From the NCBI GenBank assembly GCA_035998445.1, contig DASYHQ010000039.1:1-64000 (forward strand): a stretch of DNA of 64,000 nt, in the 5' to 3' direction. The position numbers were made by a program, and so were the translations under genes. Below the pieces are notes generated by a model. The model made no database searches, had not been told where the DNA came from, and saw only the letters and a program-made list of their open reading frames with translations. Below are positions 272 through 26,341 of the stretch, in pieces. The DNA is from Tepidisphaeraceae bacterium (GTDB taxonomy: Bacteria; Planctomycetota; Phycisphaerae; Tepidisphaerales; Tepidisphaeraceae). Each line of letters begins with the position of its first letter. Positions within the stretch are counted from its first letter, which is position 1.

Positions 272-616
272 ATGCAGCAGCAGGCCCCTGACATCACTTC
301 GAACGACCTGATCGACTACCTGATGCAGCACTTCGGGCGGTTTGTCTCGGCCGACGAGAACCATGCGTTTTACCGCTACGTGATGTATGGGCCGCATGAC
401 CCAGGTCCGCCGGACTCTGGTGGCCTGGACGAGCCTGGCCTGGTCGTGAGACAATTACTGGCGGACGGATCGATCGAGTTCAAGCGGCGCATCGCTGAGC
501 GCATTCTGCGAGAGCACGGGGACGCCGTGTTCTTGAATCTCTGCCCGCGCTGTCGGGGACTGTGCCGGACTCCGAAGGCGCTTCAGTGCTTCCGATGCGG
601 TCACAGTTGGGAATAA
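272..616 (+). CDS. hypothetical protein with C-terminal zinc ribbon
   Basis: A 114-residue protein of unknown function. The C-terminal third contains CPRC and CFRC pairs about 15 residues apart, the spacing of a small zinc ribbon. The start is the ATG immediately after the 129-bp direct repeat, and no clear ribosome binding site precedes it. The N-terminal part is acidic and probably helical. It lies at the left end of the accessory block of short plus-strand genes but is not followed by an attC-like site; a 22-bp perfect hairpin (634-682) follows instead. Zinc binding is inferred from the cysteine pattern; the cellular role is unknown. Confidence 0.6.
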   Translation: MQQQAPDITSNDLIDYLMQHFGRFVSADENHAFYRYVMYGPHDPGPPDSGGLDEPGLVVRQLLADGSIEFKRRIAERILREHGDAVFLNLCPRCRGLCRTPKALQCFRCGHSWE

Positions 617-925: not shown

Positions 926-1537
926 ATGGCCGAACGTCTCGTGAATCTTCGGCTGGTACACGGAGACGCCCGCGAGGTCCGAGCTGGGATGGCGGTCATC
1001 GGTCAGCGCAGTCCTGCGCACACATGGCTGGAGTCATGCGGACATTCGTTTCAGCCGGCGGACCTCAAGGCCAGTCACGCCAGGGCATTGTGGTGCTCGC
1101 CAGGTGAGCCGTGGGAACATGTAATATCGATCAGACCTCGAATCGGTCATGTCACGCAAACACGACTGTCTCATGACGTTCACGACGCGATCGGCTGGGG
1201 TTTGCGGCGTTGGCCAGTGAACGATGTCGTGATCATACCGCTCTTCTGGCGCGAGCCGGAGTTGGTCTCGTTCAACATCCTGCTTGCACTGTGGATATTG
1301 TCGTTCTCGCCGAAGCATAGGGTTGGGCGTGAACGACTGGACGTAACCTTCACAATCGCGTCGCTTGATTCCGTTGAACCGTTTGATTTCTGGCTGCGTG
1401 ACGAGTGCCGTCAACTAAGAGCGGGAATTTCGAAGCTGATTATCTCGGGCACTGCCGGCGGCGAGTTCGCGCTATTCGCCCGGTTTCAGCCCACGTTCGA
1501 TCAACCTCGATTCGCGGTCGCCGCCGGAGCCACATAA
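926..1537 (+). CDS. hypothetical cassette protein
   Basis: About 203 residues; I do not recognise the family. No signal peptide is evident; a hydrophobic stretch near residues 110-130 (LVSFNILLALWILSF) could be one membrane helix or a buried strand. The start is uncertain: ATG 926, GTG 920 or TTG 905 are in frame, all just after the second 129-bp repeat. The TAA stop (1535-1537) lies inside the ATAAC box of the first attC-like site, the arrangement expected for a gene cassette. Function unknown. Confidence 0.55.
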   Translation: MAERLVNLRLVHGDAREVRAGMAVIGQRSPAHTWLESCGHSFQPADLKASHARALWCSPGEPWEHVISIRPRIGHVTQTRLSHDVHDAIGWGLRRWPVNDVVIIPLFWREPELVSFNILLALWILSFSPKHRVGRERLDVTFTIASLDSVEPFDFWLRDECRQLRAGISKLIISGTAGGEFALFARFQPTFDQPRFAVAAGAT

Positions 1538-1630
1538 CCAAACGCTGCAATGGACCGGCCCCGCGTTGAGCATTCTGGTAGATTGAAAGTCGGTCGGCGC
1601 GGTGCCGGCCATTGAACGTTGGTCCGTTAT
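1534..1630 (+). other. attC-like recombination site 1
   Basis: Left box ATAAC 1534-1538, right box GTTAT 1626-1630. The inner arms GCAATGG-A-CCGGC and GCCGG-CCATTG pair with a single unpaired A, as the extrahelical base in integron attC sites. The site is 97 nt long with a variable centre. Confidence 0.75.
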
Positions 1631-1639
1631 CCGGCAAAG

Positions 1640-1981
1640 ATGAGCCTCTCGTACCGAACAGTCACGCAGTCCGCCCGGGTGCGCGGAGACATAACCGGCG
1701 TATCGGACTGGTTTATTGACGCGCCGCTCCAACGGCCCAACCGTAAGAGCGACATTTGGCACTTCGCGTCGGACGAATTGTGGACGCCTCTTGGAATTCC
1801 TTTGCGTGTTTCGGTGACGATCGGTCCGAAGAACTCGCTGCAAGTTTGGTCTGTTCAAACAAAGTTGTTAGAGGTCGGCATCGTAGACCTGACCATCCAC
1901 GTAGAGCTTTGGCTTCCGACCGATGAGCGTCTCAGGGTGTGGACGGAAGAGAGTCGCACGGCCTCCGCGAATGCCGGATAA
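1640..1981 (+). CDS. hypothetical cassette protein
   Basis: A 113-residue protein without recognisable motifs, rich in beta-type sequence with several Trp residues (W25, W41, W48 and others). I chose the first ATG after the attC-like site; an in-frame earlier start lies inside the site. No convincing ribosome binding site is visible. The stop TAA overlaps the ATAAC box of attC-like site 2, so gene plus site form a compact ~444-bp unit. Function unknown. Confidence 0.55.
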   Translation: MSLSYRTVTQSARVRGDITGVSDWFIDAPLQRPNRKSDIWHFASDELWTPLGIPLRVSVTIGPKNSLQVWSVQTKLLEVGIVDLTIHVELWLPTDERLRVWTEESRTASANAG

Positions 1982-2074
1982 CCACGCACTGGAACGGACC
2001 GGCCGGGCGGGTCGGTCCTTGTGAATCGTCAAATGGTCGAGCGCCCGGCCGGCCGTTCAATGCTGGTCCGTTAT
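1978..2074 (+). other. attC-like recombination site 2
   Basis: ATAAC 1978-1982 and GTTAT 2070-2074. Arms GGAACGG-A-CCGGCCGGGC and GCCCGGCCGG-CCGTTC are complementary with one unpaired A. Length 97 nt, the same as site 1. Confidence 0.8.
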
Positions 2075-2404
2075 ATCGCGGAGTCTATTCCCTTGTCGGA
2101 GCCGTTAACGAACCTGATCGACGTCCTGATCCGCACGCGGCAATTGCTGCTGCTGCCGGAGAACGACTTCTGTTGGTCACGATGGGACGACGCCGAATCC
2201 GCCGTCCGGGACATCGACGGGTTCATCCGAGTCTTACGCGAAGGAGACCTTCCGCCCAGGATGGACCTGAGCATCCTCTTCGCTCCGACGGGTTCGATAC
2301 AGGACGTCAGTTTGAGTAGCGGTTGGGGCGACGAATTCATCGCCCTGTCGGAACAGTTCGACCGTGCGGAAGAAAGAGCGTACGGCCGCGCGGCCGCGGG
2401 ATAA
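2060..2404 (+). CDS. hypothetical cassette protein
   Basis: About 114 residues, acidic and probably alpha-helical, no recognised family. The start is unclear: ATG 2060 lies inside attC-like site 2, so its first codons would be encoded by the recombination site, and a TTG at 2093 is the first alternative outside it. If ATG 2060 is used, the N-terminus would change with each cassette exchange. The TAA stop (2402-2404) overlaps the ATAAC box of site 3. Function unknown. Confidence 0.5.
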   Translation: MLVRYIAESIPLSEPLTNLIDVLIRTRQLLLLPENDFCWSRWDDAESAVRDIDGFIRVLREGDLPPRMDLSILFAPTGSIQDVSLSSGWGDEFIALSEQFDRAEERAYGRAAAG

Positions 2405-2498
2405 CCCCGCACTGCAACGGACCGGCCGGGCGGAACGGTCCTTGTGATTCCAACGCGGCTCGGTGCCCGGCCGGCCGTTGAATGCTGGTCCGTTAAAC
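2401..2498 (+). other. attC-like recombination site 3
   Basis: ATAAC 2401-2405. The right box GTTAAAC (2492-2498) matches the classical GTTRRRY consensus exactly. Arms GCAACGG-A-CCGGCCGGG and CCCGGCCGG-CCGTTG pair with one unpaired A. Confidence 0.82.
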
Positions 2499-2517
2499 CT
2501 TCTCTAAACGAGGTCCC

Positions 2518-3078
2518 ATGCGTTTTGCTGCTCTTTCGATCGCGTGCCTGCTTGTCGTGAGTCTCTTGCCACCGGCGGTGTTCGTGCGAGCGGCCGAGGA
2601 GCCCGGGCAGTCACAGATTACCGTCCGGCCCGGCGGCGATTTGACGGCGCAGGAGTTGGCCACTCTTCTCGACGCGCACGTATGGAAGCTGAACGTATCT
2701 CTCCCCGAGGGCGCGAAGGAAGTTTCCATCAGGCTTGATCAGCAAGCCAACGGAAAGGATCGCGTCGGTTTTGGCGCCGGCATTAACACGCCACTGATGG
2801 CGGATACGAAGCGTGAGGTGCTTATCGCCATTGTCCCGATCGGCGGCGGCCTCTCGGAAGCCGAGAAAGTGCGGGTGACGATCATTGGATTCGGCATGGT
2901 GGCAAGTAGAACGGATGACAACCCGCTGCGCAAGCTCGGCATCGGAGGACCGGTGGGATCGCCTGAAGCAGCGGGTGATGGGACCTTCAACCTAATAGGC
3001 GGCTATGAAGGCGGCAACATTTCCAGCCCGGTTTCCAAGGCGGACAGGGTCATTTCTCTTAAAATCGAGACCCGGTGA
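2518..3078 (+). CDS. exported hypothetical protein (cassette-borne)
   Basis: A 186-residue protein with a clear signal peptide: basic start, hydrophobic core over residues 5-22 and a likely cleavage after VRA near residue 25. The mature part is beta-rich with many Gly and Val and matches no family I know. GAGG about 7 nt upstream supports ATG 2518. The gene sits between attC-like sites 3 and 4. A periplasmic or extracellular location is inferred; function unknown. Confidence 0.65.
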   Translation: MRFAALSIACLLVVSLLPPAVFVRAAEEPGQSQITVRPGGDLTAQELATLLDAHVWKLNVSLPEGAKEVSIRLDQQANGKDRVGFGAGINTPLMADTKREVLIAIVPIGGGLSEAEKVRVTIIGFGMVASRTDDNPLRKLGIGGPVGSPEAAGDGTFNLIGGYEGGNISSPVSKADRVISLKIETR

Positions 3079-3090
3079 CGGCGAGAAGGT

Positions 3091-3186
3091 ATGACCCGCC
3101 GTTGCACTGGACCGCGGCCGCGAAGCGTTTACTCTAATTCGAACGGTCGTCGGCGCGGCCGCGGCCAGTGAACGGCAATCCGTTAT
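3091..3186 (+). other. attC-like recombination site 4
   Basis: Left box ATGAC (3091-3095, one G:T wobble against GTTAT 3182-3186). Arms CACTGG-A-CCGCGGCCGCG and CGCGGCCGCGG-CCAGTG are perfectly complementary apart from the unpaired A. Here the upstream gene ends 12 nt before the site. Confidence 0.78.
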
Positions 3187-3203
3187 GTGCCGGAGGAGCC
3201 CGC

Positions 3204-3593
3204 GTGGCTGACGAGCTGCTGCAAGCTGACGAGGTCGTGGCACAACTGTCCGGTGGCGAGTGCGCTGTCGTTCACGAGGCGACGGGGACGGAAGTCTGGA
3301 TCTTCCACGAGGCCGGCAACGGGTCCGAGCCATACCACATCAAGGCGCCCCTCCCCGACGTCCCGAAGCGAGCCGTCTTAGTGCAAGCCCTGCCGCTCGG
3401 GTTCGCTTTAACGTCCGACGATTCGTCGCTCGGGCCAGTCTTCCAACTGCAACGGCGGTGCTTCGGCGTCCGAGCGGCGGCACACAAGGCGCTGGGTCTG
3501 GCAAGGATTCTTGCCGGCGCGCCGTCCGATGCGCGGCTATGGATCACGACGACCGAGTACGACAATCGAGAGCCGCCGACGCCCGGCACATAA
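3204..3593 (+). CDS. hypothetical cassette protein
   Basis: A 129-residue protein of unknown family. GTG 3204 is chosen because GGAGGAG lies at the right distance before it; earlier in-frame starts fall inside attC-like site 4. The sequence reads as a compact alpha/beta domain; nothing catalytic is recognisable. The TAA stop overlaps the ATAAC box of site 5. Function unknown. Confidence 0.55.
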   Translation: MADELLQADEVVAQLSGGECAVVHEATGTEVWIFHEAGNGSEPYHIKAPLPDVPKRAVLVQALPLGFALTSDDSSLGPVFQLQRRCFGVRAAAHKALGLARILAGAPSDARLWITTTEYDNREPPTPGT

Positions 3594-3684
3594 CCCGCCA
3601 ATGCACCGGACCGGGCCGGCGGTATAGTTTCTGTCGGTCGAACGCGGCTCGGTGCCGGCCGGCCGGTGATCGGCCCTACGTTAT
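3590..3684 (+). other. attC-like recombination site 5
   Basis: ATAAC 3590-3594 and GTTAT 3680-3684. Arms GCACCGG-A-CCGGGCCGGC and GCCGGCCGG-CCGGTG pair, again with the single unpaired A. The centre closely resembles that of site 6. Confidence 0.78.
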
Positions 3685-3705
3685 ATCGCGGGGGAGCGGT
3701 CCTCG

Positions 3706-4236
3706 ATGTCCAAGCAACTTCTCATCCTCGACGTGGACGAGACGCTCGTCTACGCCGACGAGAAGCCGCTAGCACGCGCCCCTGAATTCCGTGTCGGTCC
3801 GTTCCACGTCTACCGGCGTCCGTTCCTTCGCGAGTTCGTCACGGCCGTCGCCGATTGGTTCGACCTAGCCGTATGGTCCTCGGCCTCTGGCTCGTACGTT
3901 CATGGCGTCGTTGAGAACGTATTTGGTGTGCCGAACGCACTACGTTTCGTCTGGGCGTGCGACCGATGCACGCGGCGATATCATGCCGAGTTGCAGGAGC
4001 ACTATTACGCGAAGAATCTATCAAAGCTTCGGAAGCTCGGGTTCGAGCTCGAACGGATTCTGATGGTGGACGATTCACCAGAGAAGCTTTCACAGCACTA
4101 CGGCAATCACATCCGCGTGTCTCTGTTCACGGGCGACGAGTCAGATACCGAATTGCGAGATTTGCTGCCGTTTCTCGACTCGCTGCGAACCGCCGAGAAC
4201 GTTCGGCAGATTGAGAAGCGATTCTGGCGGCAGTGA
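3706..4236 (+). CDS. FCP1/SCP-like HAD phosphatase (NIF domain)
   Basis: A 176-residue HAD-superfamily phosphatase of the NLI-interacting factor/FCP1 type, known in eukaryotes to dephosphorylate the RNA polymerase II tail; the bacterial substrate is unknown. All motifs are present: DVDETL with nucleophile D9 and acid D11, VWSSAS at 56-61 (motif II), K103 in YAKNLSK (motif III) and VDDSPEK at 121-127 (motif IV). A CDRC pair (85-88) lies in the region where FCP1-like proteins carry an insert. GGGGAG precedes the ATG. It is the only gene in the cassette block with a clear family assignment. Its stop codon lies inside the 93-bp palindromic element, not an attC-like site. Confidence 0.85.
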   Translation: MSKQLLILDVDETLVYADEKPLARAPEFRVGPFHVYRRPFLREFVTAVADWFDLAVWSSASGSYVHGVVENVFGVPNALRFVWACDRCTRRYHAELQEHYYAKNLSKLRKLGFELERILMVDDSPEKLSQHYGNHIRVSLFTGDESDTELRDLLPFLDSLRTAENVRQIEKRFWRQ

Positions 4237-4324
4237 CGTAGGGTCCGCCGGTACTCCTGCGGACCGTTCCCGTCCCCGACCGAGAGGCGGTCCGCAGGAG
4301 TACCAGCGGACCCTACAAGACTGG
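4232..4324. repeat. 93-bp palindromic element, copy 2
   Basis: Near-identical to 5139-5231. Long arms (GGGTCCGCCGGTAC... / GTACCAGCGGACCC) enclose a ~20-nt loop. The element begins at AGTGACG, which supplies the TGA stop of the phosphatase gene, at the place where an attC site would be expected. Confidence 0.88.
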
Positions 4325-4345
4325 GTAATACGTCTACGGGGACGA

Positions 4346-4351
4346 TATAAT
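4346..4351 (+). promoter_or_regulatory. perfect -10 box 7 nt before a start codon
   Basis: TATAAT at 4346-4351 lies just before ATG 4359 and after the 93-bp element. If used, transcription would begin at or next to the ATG, giving a leaderless mRNA. The -35 region is poor. Confidence 0.35.
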
Positions 4352-4358
4352 AGTAGTT

Positions 4359-4682
4359 ATGCAGCACGAGGCGACTGCTCCCCCGACGCTGCCGTACGGC
4401 ACGCCGCCGCGAAGCCGCAGGTGGCGCGTGTTCGCGTTTCTGATCGGTGGCAGCGTCGCGCAGTTTGCGCTGCTGCTCGTGCTCTCGTCTTATCGAGAGG
4501 TACGGTGGGTTGATCGGGTGGCGTGGGTGCTAGAGTGTCCGCTGTTTCGGATCATGTGGGACCTCGGCCTGCCTGTCACGAACACCAACGGCTACGCGCT
4601 CGGCCTGTTGAACGGCCTTTGCTGGTCGTCGTTCGCGGTCCTGGTCGTATGGTTGGTGCGGCGTGCGCGACGTGCTGCATAA
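4359..4682 (+). CDS. small membrane protein (cassette-borne, unknown function)
   Basis: A 107-residue protein with two predicted membrane helices (about residues 25-43 and 80-100), a Pro/Arg-rich cytoplasmic N-terminus and a C-terminal Arg cluster (RRARRAA). No family recognised. ATG 4359 has no ribosome binding site but follows a TATAAT box by 7 nt, so leaderless translation is possible. The stop overlaps the ATAAC box of attC-like site 6. Confidence 0.6.
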   Translation: MQHEATAPPTLPYGTPPRSRRWRVFAFLIGGSVAQFALLLVLSSYREVRWVDRVAWVLECPLFRIMWDLGLPVTNTNGYALGLLNGLCWSSFAVLVVWLVRRARRAA

Positions 4683-4774
4683 CCCGCCAATGCACCGGAC
4701 CGTGCCGGCGGTATAGTTGCTGTCGGTCGGATGCGGCGCGGCGCCGGCTCGGCCACTGATCGGCCTCTCGTTAT
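4679..4774 (+). other. attC-like recombination site 6
   Basis: ATAAC 4679-4683 and GTTAT 4770-4774. Arms TGCACCGG-A-CCGTGCCGGC and GCCGGCTCGG-CCACTG pair less perfectly than in the other sites. The first 25 nt are almost identical to site 5. Confidence 0.7.
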
Positions 4775-4780
4775 CCCGCT

Positions 4781-5140
4781 ATGGCATCATTAATCGCCAT
4801 CACTTCCGGCGCGGCGGACGGAGGGCTGCTAGCGCTCTGTCTCTTTGGGGTCGCCCCTGTCGCCCTGTTTGTACACTTGCTTGTGCGTCGGTTCGTTTTC
4901 GTCTCGCTGGTGATTTCGCTCGTGTTCGGCCTGTTTCTGCTTGGCCTCTGGCTCTATTTTGATGCAGGGGTTCCCGGGAGGAGATGGGTGAGCTTTCGGC
5001 TGGTGTGGGTCGGTTTCATAATCGCGATGGTCGTTAGCGCAATCGCAGGAATCCCCACGCTACTCGTCGGCGCATTCGGCGGTCCGAGAAGGCGGGATAA
5101 ACAGCCGCTGCAGCGGACCGGCGACGAGGGTAAACTGTAG
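4781..5140 (+). CDS. small membrane protein (cassette-borne, unknown function)
   Basis: A 119-residue protein with about four hydrophobic segments (residues 16-35, 38-60, 70-85 and 85-98) and a basic C-terminus. No family recognised. ATG 4781 lies six nt after attC-like site 6. The last ~15 codons read through what looks like the left half of another attC site (5097-5126) and then stop at TAG inside the 93-bp element. The original, shorter C-terminus was probably lost when the attC site was disrupted. Confidence 0.5.
   Translation: MASLIAITSGAADGGLLALCLFGVAPVALFVHLLVRRFVFVSLVISLVFGLFLLGLWLYFDAGVPGRRWVSFRLVWVGFIIAMVVSAIAGIPTLLVGAFGGPRRRDKQPLQRTGDEGKL
5097..5126 (+). other. left half of a disrupted attC-like site
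   Basis: ATAAACAGCCGCTGC followed by AGCGG-A-CCGGC matches the left box and left arm of the six intact sites, including the unpaired A. The right half is missing; the 93-bp palindromic element begins 13 nt further on. Confidence 0.55.
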
Positions 5141-5231
5141 TGACGTAGGGTCCGCCGGTACACCTGCGGACCGTTCCCGTCCCCGACCGAGAGGCGGTCC
5201 GCAGGAGTACCAGCGGACCCTACAAGACTGG
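5139..5231. repeat. 93-bp palindromic element, copy 3
   Basis: Differs from copy 2 by only one or two bases. Begins at AGTGACG and ends at AAGACTGG. It lies directly after the half attC-like site and 8 nt before the stop of the next, minus-strand gene. Confidence 0.88.
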
Positions 5232-5238
5232 TTGTCTT

Positions 5239-6018
5239 TCAATCGGCGATCAGCGGCCGCGGTAGCCATTTGCTTTCGTATCGCATGTTGGCCCCGTCTC
5301 GGATTGCGAGCTTCGCGAACACGGCTTCGACGTATGGCCAGAAGAAGTGCTCATGCTTCTTGGCGACGTCGATTTCCGTCTCGCCCGTCGGTAACACAGC
5401 AAGCGCCCCCTCACGCTCGGCGATCCTCCAATGCTTCTCCGCACCGGTCCGGACGGCTTTCTTGAGCGAGGCGTAGTCCCGGCGGACGAATGCATCCACG
5501 ATGGCTGGAGATGGCCACGCGAACGTGCGATCCGGCTTGTATTTCGCAAACTTCGCCGCCTGATCCCGTACCCGATCGTCGTCACCCAACACCCGGCCGG
5601 CGAGGATTCCCGTCCAGCTCTCGTGGAACTGATACCGGCTCGACTCGTCGGCGATGAACACCTTCTCCGCGACGCTTTCGGCTAACGCGACGTCGTCAGA
5701 CAGGATGGCGCATTGCAACCAGAAGCTATCGAAACATTCTCGCAGTGCCCGGCCGGGCGCAAACGGGTGCACGTCGATCACCTTCGCGGCGCTGAGCGCA
5801 ATCGCGCGAAGCACGTCATGCGAAGCATTGCGATCTTGGGAGCGATGCCACTCCAGGAACGCATAGTTGATCGCCGCACGGCATGCATGCATCGGCGGAG
5901 CCAGCCCCAGAGTCTCTACCGCTGTAAAACGCGGCTCGGGGAGGTCGACGCGAGAGAATGCGCGGAACAACTCCAACCGATTCCCGATGTTCTTGAATAC
6001 GAGGTCCTTGCCAGCCAT
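5239..6018 (-). CDS. hypothetical protein, possibly Imm49-like
   Basis: About 259 residues from the ATG at 6018 (MAGKDLVF...); an in-frame upstream extension looks non-coding. The protein is soluble and largely helical, with repeat-like helical pairs and a C-terminal FWPYVEAVFAKLA...LPRPLI segment. That tail resembles, from memory, the C-terminus of the Imm49 immunity family, but I cannot confirm it. It is the first minus-strand gene after the cassette block and converges on it. No toxin partner is visible nearby. Confidence 0.5.
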   Translation of the reverse strand: MAGKDLVFKNIGNRLELFRAFSRVDLPEPRFTAVETLGLAPPMHACRAAINYAFLEWHRSQDRNASHDVLRAIALSAAKVIDVHPFAPGRALRECFDSFWLQCAILSDDVALAESVAEKVFIADESSRYQFHESWTGILAGRVLGDDDRVRDQAAKFAKYKPDRTFAWPSPAIVDAFVRRDYASLKKAVRTGAEKHWRIAEREGALAVLPTGETEIDVAKKHEHFFWPYVEAVFAKLAIRDGANMRYESKWLPRPLIAD

Positions 6019-6356
6019 GGATCCCACCGTCCTACACGCTATACGCGCAAACTGTTCGTCCCCCGGTAGGTGGCACCGTGTGGGTACGGCCAACGGATGG
6101 GTGGATGGCTGCCGATGCCATTCTACCGCGTCGACGCATGGCGGGCCGCACGATCGCACAGGTTGCGCGTACACAACCTGTACCACCCAGCCGCCTGTGA
6201 AGGCAAAAAAGGTTATTCCCACTCGATCGTCGCCGGCGGTTTGCTGCTGATGTCGTACACGGTCGGAGATAAAGGGGTCGGGAGTCTATAATGCGGTGGA
6301 ACAATGACTCCCGCCCCCTTGGTTGTCCCTTCCCCCGACAGCGGATAAGGACCAGC
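6019..6356. other. intergenic region with hairpins and guaA fragment
   Basis: No intact gene. It holds a small hairpin near 6160-6181 (CAGGTTG...CAACCTG), GC-rich sequence resembling other planctomycete intergenic repeats, and the guaA fragment. Confidence 0.6.
6213..6260 (-). pseudogene. guaA: 3'-end fragment of guaA (GMP synthase)
   Basis: Reading the minus strand, 15 codons ending in TAA spell VYDISSKPPATIEWE, the highly conserved C-terminus of GMP synthase. Nothing upstream of the V continues the protein, so this is a detached 3' end. The guaA 3' end is an established integration target of genomic islands, so this may be an attachment-site copy; it may also be a deletion relic. Confidence 0.8.

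Positions 6357-24827: not shown

Positions 24828-26341
<1,514 letters not shown>

Follow-up and report, generated by a model that had tools for sequence, protein, structure and literature searches.

The DNA analyzed here is a 64-kb window (the whole stretch, at its full length) of a draft assembly, G000, the genome under study. Its left part holds a series of plus-strand cassette ORFs with attC sites, preceded at three points by what we call a head, that is, a conserved segment upstream of a first cassette that ends ...AATAGTAG|TTAT or ...AATCACTAG|TTAT. Two models of our own were used throughout: R1, a covariance model trained on the six attC sites of the window, which stood in for the IntegronFinder attC model and HattCI, and R2, a sequence model built from 18 array heads (window head 2 among them), from which the full-intI loci L037–L040 were left out. 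Of the R2 training sequences, two (L104 and L106) later proved to be 133 bp away from contig-end intI stubs.

The heads at 223–270, 869–920, and 4312–4361 (all plus strand) divide the window array into three short arrays. Head 1, an attI-like segment of type 2 (within a repeat at 144–274; R2 E 0.0047), has a junction, G269|T270, that reads GTA and not GTT; directly behind it lies a single ORF of 114 aa (272–616, plus strand; no R1 match), followed by a palindromic repeat and no attC. Head 2, also of type 2 and the start of the main array (R2 E 5e-5; junction G915|T916), is 97% identical to head 1 over 139 bp ending at the junction, and its homology to other heads of the genome likewise stops there. 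It leads five complete cassettes, with plus-strand ORFs at 905–1537 (likely start ATG 926), 1643–1981 (of which an 80% identical copy occurs as a cassette on contig C36), 2093–2404, 2518–3078 (signal-peptide-like N terminus), and 3204–3593, and then a sixth cassette (3706–4236, plus strand) that encodes an FCP1/NIF-type phosphatase (PF03031, E 6e-31) and has a palindromic repeat, at 4237–4325 right after its stop codon, in place of an attC. The first-pass annotation had found the cargo unrecognizable apart from this phosphatase; the phosphatase was confirmed, and the ORFs of cassettes 1, 3, 4, and 5 had no Pfam match. Head 3 is a copy of the genome's own attI (33/33 nt at 4326–4358; junction G4356|T4357). 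Behind it lie a first cassette for a small membrane-like protein (4359–4682, plus strand), which is complete, and a second (4781–5140, plus strand) whose attC is cut by another copy of the palindromic repeat. The division into three arrays explains why no attC follows the FCP1-like cassette.

The palindromic repeat, REP/MITE-like with GGTCCGCAGGNGTACCAGCGGACCCTAC arms, occurs in the window at 1–80, 4237–4325, and 5143–5231 and elsewhere at L116 3919–4003. A second attC half site, cut by the same repeat, lies at the end of contig C9, and attC sites may be a target of the repeat or be eroded by it. The window itself starts at a contig end, within the repeat copy at 1–80, and positions 1–141 are identical to positions 1–141 of contig C57 in the same assembly. 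The two contigs overlap here at a branch of the assembly, which leaves the true left neighbor of the array ambiguous.

The six complete attC sites, all folded on the minus (bottom) strand, lie at 1533–1630 (R1, 94.0 bits), 1977–2074 (92.6 bits), 2400–2496 (97.5 bits), 3090–3186 (100.3 bits), 3589–3684 (95.4 bits), and 4678–4774 (93.9 bits), and the left half of a seventh, cut by the repeat at 5143–5231, was recognized from sequence at 5096–5142. Six sites and one half site had been placed here before, and both their number and their places held: one 28-pair fold of the bottom strand is common to all six, they covary, and the model trained on them matches the window sites and finds more across the genome. 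Double compensatory changes were present in 12 of the 28 pairs in a MAFFT alignment of the six window sites and in 22 of 28 among 113 R1 matches from this genome and its relatives; the larger alignment is fitted to R1, and the six-site alignment is thus the cleaner proof of covariation. Paired cells amounted to 90.7% in the 113 matches versus 76.4% in shuffles and 23–47% when the partner was slid by 1–3 columns. The sites had been described as sharing a single unpaired base; two are conserved, six pairs apart and with neighbors that covary, and on the bottom strand they are T (104/106) and C (106/107). The GTT/AAC core at the R' box is present (bottom-strand A, A, and C in 101, 103, and 103 of 107), and the ATAAC-type left box attributed to every site applies except to the fourth, which reads TATGAC. 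Folding energy alone did not single out the bottom strand, and for the sites at 3589 and 4678 it was not better than that of dinucleotide shuffles (z −0.6 and +0.8), so that these two sites stand on covariation and model score. An Rfam search of the window gave no attC family match, only 16S rRNA. As a reference we took attC sites of class 1 integrons, compared by hand because their loops are too different for safe alignment: that of aadA2 has the same two bulges six pairs apart, but they are T and G, and most reference sites have G at the base that is C here. By hand alignment, the cmlA8 site (L095) apparently has C at that bulge too.

In the whole of G000, R1 gave 43 matches at E up to 1, 37 of them with E <0.001; outside the window there were 26 with E <1e-11 (best 4e-29). 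Of 26 genomes of the family, G000 among them, 11 have R1 sites; of 35 genomes from other families, none does. For 96 of 108 attC sites, the cassette strand carries an ORF of 60 aa or longer ahead of the site. The earlier reading of these sites as attC was borne out by their relatives: in G005, G013, G020, and G021, which belong to related genera, sites of the R1 family stand next to an intact integron integrase, arranged divergently as is canonical, and, as described below, cassette homology ends at the sites. These four were the only ones among 25 family genomes searched with a full IntI, the criterion being a TIGR02249 score over the cut-off; the IntI of G005, G020, and G021 are 58–62% identical to that of G013, and the G020 protein has 41% identity to IntI1 across 99% of its length. 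Taking fold, covariation, and neighborhood together, we conclude that the window sites are integron attC sites.

These observations bear on a rival explanation, that the window holds repeated intergenic promoters with attC-like terminators or other RNA structures and has no integron history. The TA-rich, promoter-like boxes in the heads, some head genes that have no attC, and the palindromic repeats common here would all suit it. We nevertheless regard it as extremely improbable, since in four genera attC sites adjoin intact IntI in the canonical arrangement, one strand keeps unpaired bases at a spacing of six pairs, bottom-strand G.T wobbles outnumber A.C mismatches (155 versus 86), and homology ends at G|TT on both sides.

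The window had been described as carrying no visible integrase, and this extends to the assembled genome: no intact integron integrase was found in either, only truncated intI starts. One contig end (C5) carries the first 73 codons of intI, 60% identical to G013 IntI, after which the frame departs from the family and stops; behind this stub are short tandem repeats (GTGCGCGAAAAT..., L013 1177–1440). Contigs C7 and C41 end in intI codons 1–47 and share 141 identical nt with the C5 end; since this is an overlap in the assembly, the number of intI stubs in G000 is uncertain. The integrase gene of G000 thus seems to have been lost, and, barring the arrival of an integrase or the presence of one in the unassembled part, its arrays are probably frozen; with only stubs found, cassette activity may have ended. 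In G005, G013, G020, and G021, the cassette system could still be able to work.

We found about 37 attC sites in G000, in about 20 arrays or loci, with one to about six cassettes per head. The first-pass annotation had read the window as one ordinary array; the integron attC reading stood, and the single array gave way to three head-led mini-arrays at one of about 20 loci. G013 is a family member assembled as a single closed contig of 7.19 Mb, and its 19 attC sites (E <1e-6) occupy 12 loci around the chromosome, of which 1 is at intI. Because G013 is closed and scattered too, it is unlikely that the scattering is an artefact of assembly or binning. GC skew sampled at 20 places in G013 showed no clean origin or terminus, and we dropped the comparison of array orientation with replication strand. 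The scattering could in principle stem from a single large integron of the classical kind, fragmented and dispersed by rearrangement after IntI loss, and it fits this history that draft contigs often end at arrays and that several genomes with attC sites have a broken IntI or none. We consider such a break-up very unlikely, because closed G013 is scattered in spite of an intact IntI, and because fragments of one array would not each gain an attI-like head.

In 12 of the 20 G000 arrays the first cassette begins at a G|TTA junction behind a conserved head of 40–280 bp; in the other 8 no head was detected, and some of these are at contig ends. Head-to-head homology covers those 40–280 bp and stops at the junction, beyond which the cassettes are unrelated. 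The heads contain promoter-like TA-rich boxes, with a segment about 35 nt before the junction. R2 found 21 heads in G000 at E <0.1, and an attC lay within 1.3 kb on the same strand for all 12 training heads and for 4 of 9 held-out heads, against a chance expectation of at most 0.4% per head. The 5 held-out heads with no attC nearby suggest that heads may also serve as plain promoters. At two loci (L137 2182–2233 on contig C55, and L138 on contig C28), heads are followed by a gene with no clear attC, which could be a cassette that lost its attC or a plain promoter use of the head. R2 matches occurred in 9 of 11 attC-bearing family genomes, in 0 of 15 family genomes without attC, and in 0 of 10 genomes from other families. 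In G021, R2 also matched the attI next to intI (E 0.001), and in G013 it did so weakly (E 0.1); a further 400 kb of G013 sequence gave no match. It missed the attI of both G020 and G005, as well as most G013 heads, which are of other types.

One head type is attI. On contigs C7 and C41, the head lies 133 bp before the intI start in divergent orientation, with the cassettes running the opposite way, and it is this position that identifies the type as the attI of G000; in G013 the corresponding distance from junction (L128:6404) to intI start (6272) is 132 bp by coordinates. The C7 and C41 copies show the features of an attI, being beside intI, divergent from it, and ended by G|TT before the first cassette. 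A 24-nt attI core pattern has five copies in G000 and none in the control: the two beside intI, and three without intI, on C59, at C7:114243, and at 4328 in the window. Type 2 heads, to which window heads 1 and 2 belong, have the core motif and the position in common with attI but were never seen beside intI; we class them as putative attI.

Other genomes gave a similar picture. In G013, a head at 2.1 Mb carries a 54-codon intI stub and is homologous to the true platform over 198 bp, and this locus, away from the full platform, also bears attC sites. The G013 head at 5.095 Mb has 22 nt (86%) in common with attI up to the junction, and the pair at 0.162 and 4.678 Mb has 82% identity across the 436 bp that lead up to the junction. 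Contig C92 of G020 carries a second array of intI stub, head, and attC, apart from the full platform.

Evidence that cassettes themselves move came from copies in different places. A 286-aa cassette was found in three genera at 87–90% protein identity; the right end of its DNA homology is the attC R' box TACGTTA in 3/3 (the third reads TACGTTG), and the left end, TAGTTATGCAGC, is the G|TTAT point in 2/3. Similarly, window cassette 2 and its C36 copy have 79% DNA identity that ends at the attC end. Such borders indicate that cassettes move by site-bounded exchange. Pfam matches were obtained for a minority of 97 cassette proteins, among them SUKH-type, GNAT, pentapeptide, and response regulator proteins, several DUFs, and the FCP1/NIF phosphatase of the window. 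Relatives of this phosphatase at 36–53% identity occur in Verrucomicrobia, Undibacterium, Massilia, Roseateles, a Myxococcales MAG, and a Lysobacterales MAG (L014–L022); the contig of the latter (L022) has two weak R1 matches (E 0.04 and 0.2) and is perhaps another cassette.

Our preferred explanation, which we hold with considerable confidence, is that the window contains cassettes behind duplicated attI sites, and that in this family the integron platform is scattered and its sites were filled by IntI acting in trans. Besides or instead of one intI-attI locus, attI-like heads would be numerous; some carry a stub of the intI start, most do not. IntI made from one locus would recombine the folded bottom-strand attC of cassette circles into any head at G|TT; for a given locus, the pointer to insertion is that heads are shared and the cassettes behind them differ. 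The head promoter would then transcribe the first cassette, so that many loci would express their first cassette simultaneously. Heads may have been copied by duplication of the segment containing the intI start and attI with later loss, as the stubs suggest, or, as a possible alternative, by recombination between palindromic repeats. Somewhat less firmly, though we still lean toward it, we propose that this amounts to a distributed integron, in which attI-promoter modules have multiplied across the chromosome and one integrase serves many points of capture and expression.

The main competitor supposes ordinary clusters of attC sites lacking integron integrase (CALINs, as defined by IntegronFinder; PMC9024848), produced by occasional IntI insertion at unrelated attG sites, with heads that merely resemble attI. 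IntI1 insertion at attG is established (Loot 2024, cited in PMC12444791 and PMC12690207), and the short junction motif and the 8 of 20 G000 arrays with no detected head speak for it too. Against it, head homology of 40–280 bp, and up to 436 bp in G013, is too long for convergence on a GTT-like motif, intI stubs are attached to some heads, and one head type, present in five copies, is the attI found beside intI, which makes this explanation hard to hold for type 1 heads. We judge it unlikely, if the least improbable of the alternatives. As in a CALIN, the window (which begins at a contig end) combines two or more attC sites and their cassette ORFs with the lack of an IntI, and elsewhere in the genome only stubs were found; it differs from a CALIN in having a platform part, the attI copy at 4326–4358. 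Nor does it contain the intI, attI, and array of a complete integron, the C7 and C41 ends having the intI start only. The heads are homologous to attI, whereas an attG is a landing site unrelated to it, a verdict that covers the arrays in which a head was detected.

Integrase-less attC arrays and planctomycete attC sites are already known (PMC9024848, PMC8352920). Integrons of planctomycetes had been called little explored on first inspection, which is weaker than stated: a taxon-specific attC covariance model exists (PMC8352920), and lists of intI genes from planctomycetes go back to 2008 (PMC2426708). The new part is the array heads; among open-access papers we found no report matching extra or scattered attI sites that head separate chromosomal arrays. 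CALINs are described without platform parts, whereas here an attI-like head starts the arrays, of which there are many per genome. Sedentary chromosomal integrons share with the present system the IntI family, a divergent attI, bottom-strand attC sites with two extrahelical bases, and cassette mobility, but here the cassettes occupy 10–20 loci with duplicated attI and the intI locus holds few of them. Scattered CALINs, with cassettes outside integrons, have been reported in Xanthomonas (PMC12444791), and these, like attG insertions (Loot et al. 2024), resemble our arrays in placing cassettes away from intI; attG sites share little beyond the core, whereas here the landing sites are homologous attI copies, some with an intI stub. 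The Delta-attI gene cassettes of mobile integrons are partial attI copies inside arrays (PMC12901181), and they are likewise extra copies away from the platform, but those pieces sit at cassette ends within arrays and the attI copies here stand at the start of separate arrays on different parts of the chromosome.

In its usual description an integron has one attI, beside intI, and expression of cassettes drops with distance from this site. Many attI copies, if our explanation is true, would remove this distance limit, give many cassettes the first position simultaneously, and bring captured genes next to many chromosomal genes. They would also offer a natural case of cassettes reaching non-integron places, for which evidence so far comes mainly from laboratory attG experiments.

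Three further features were seen in passing. A 16S rRNA gene lies at 24834–26341 (minus strand) with no 23S or 5S match within the 64 kb, and the rRNA genes seem to be unlinked. The gene to the right of the array, at 5239–6222 (minus strand), has a weak match to the Imm49 immunity protein (E 2e-4, below the Pfam cut-off). In G013, three consecutive tyrosine-recombinase genes at C1:3346726–3348829 form a possible recombinase-trio element.
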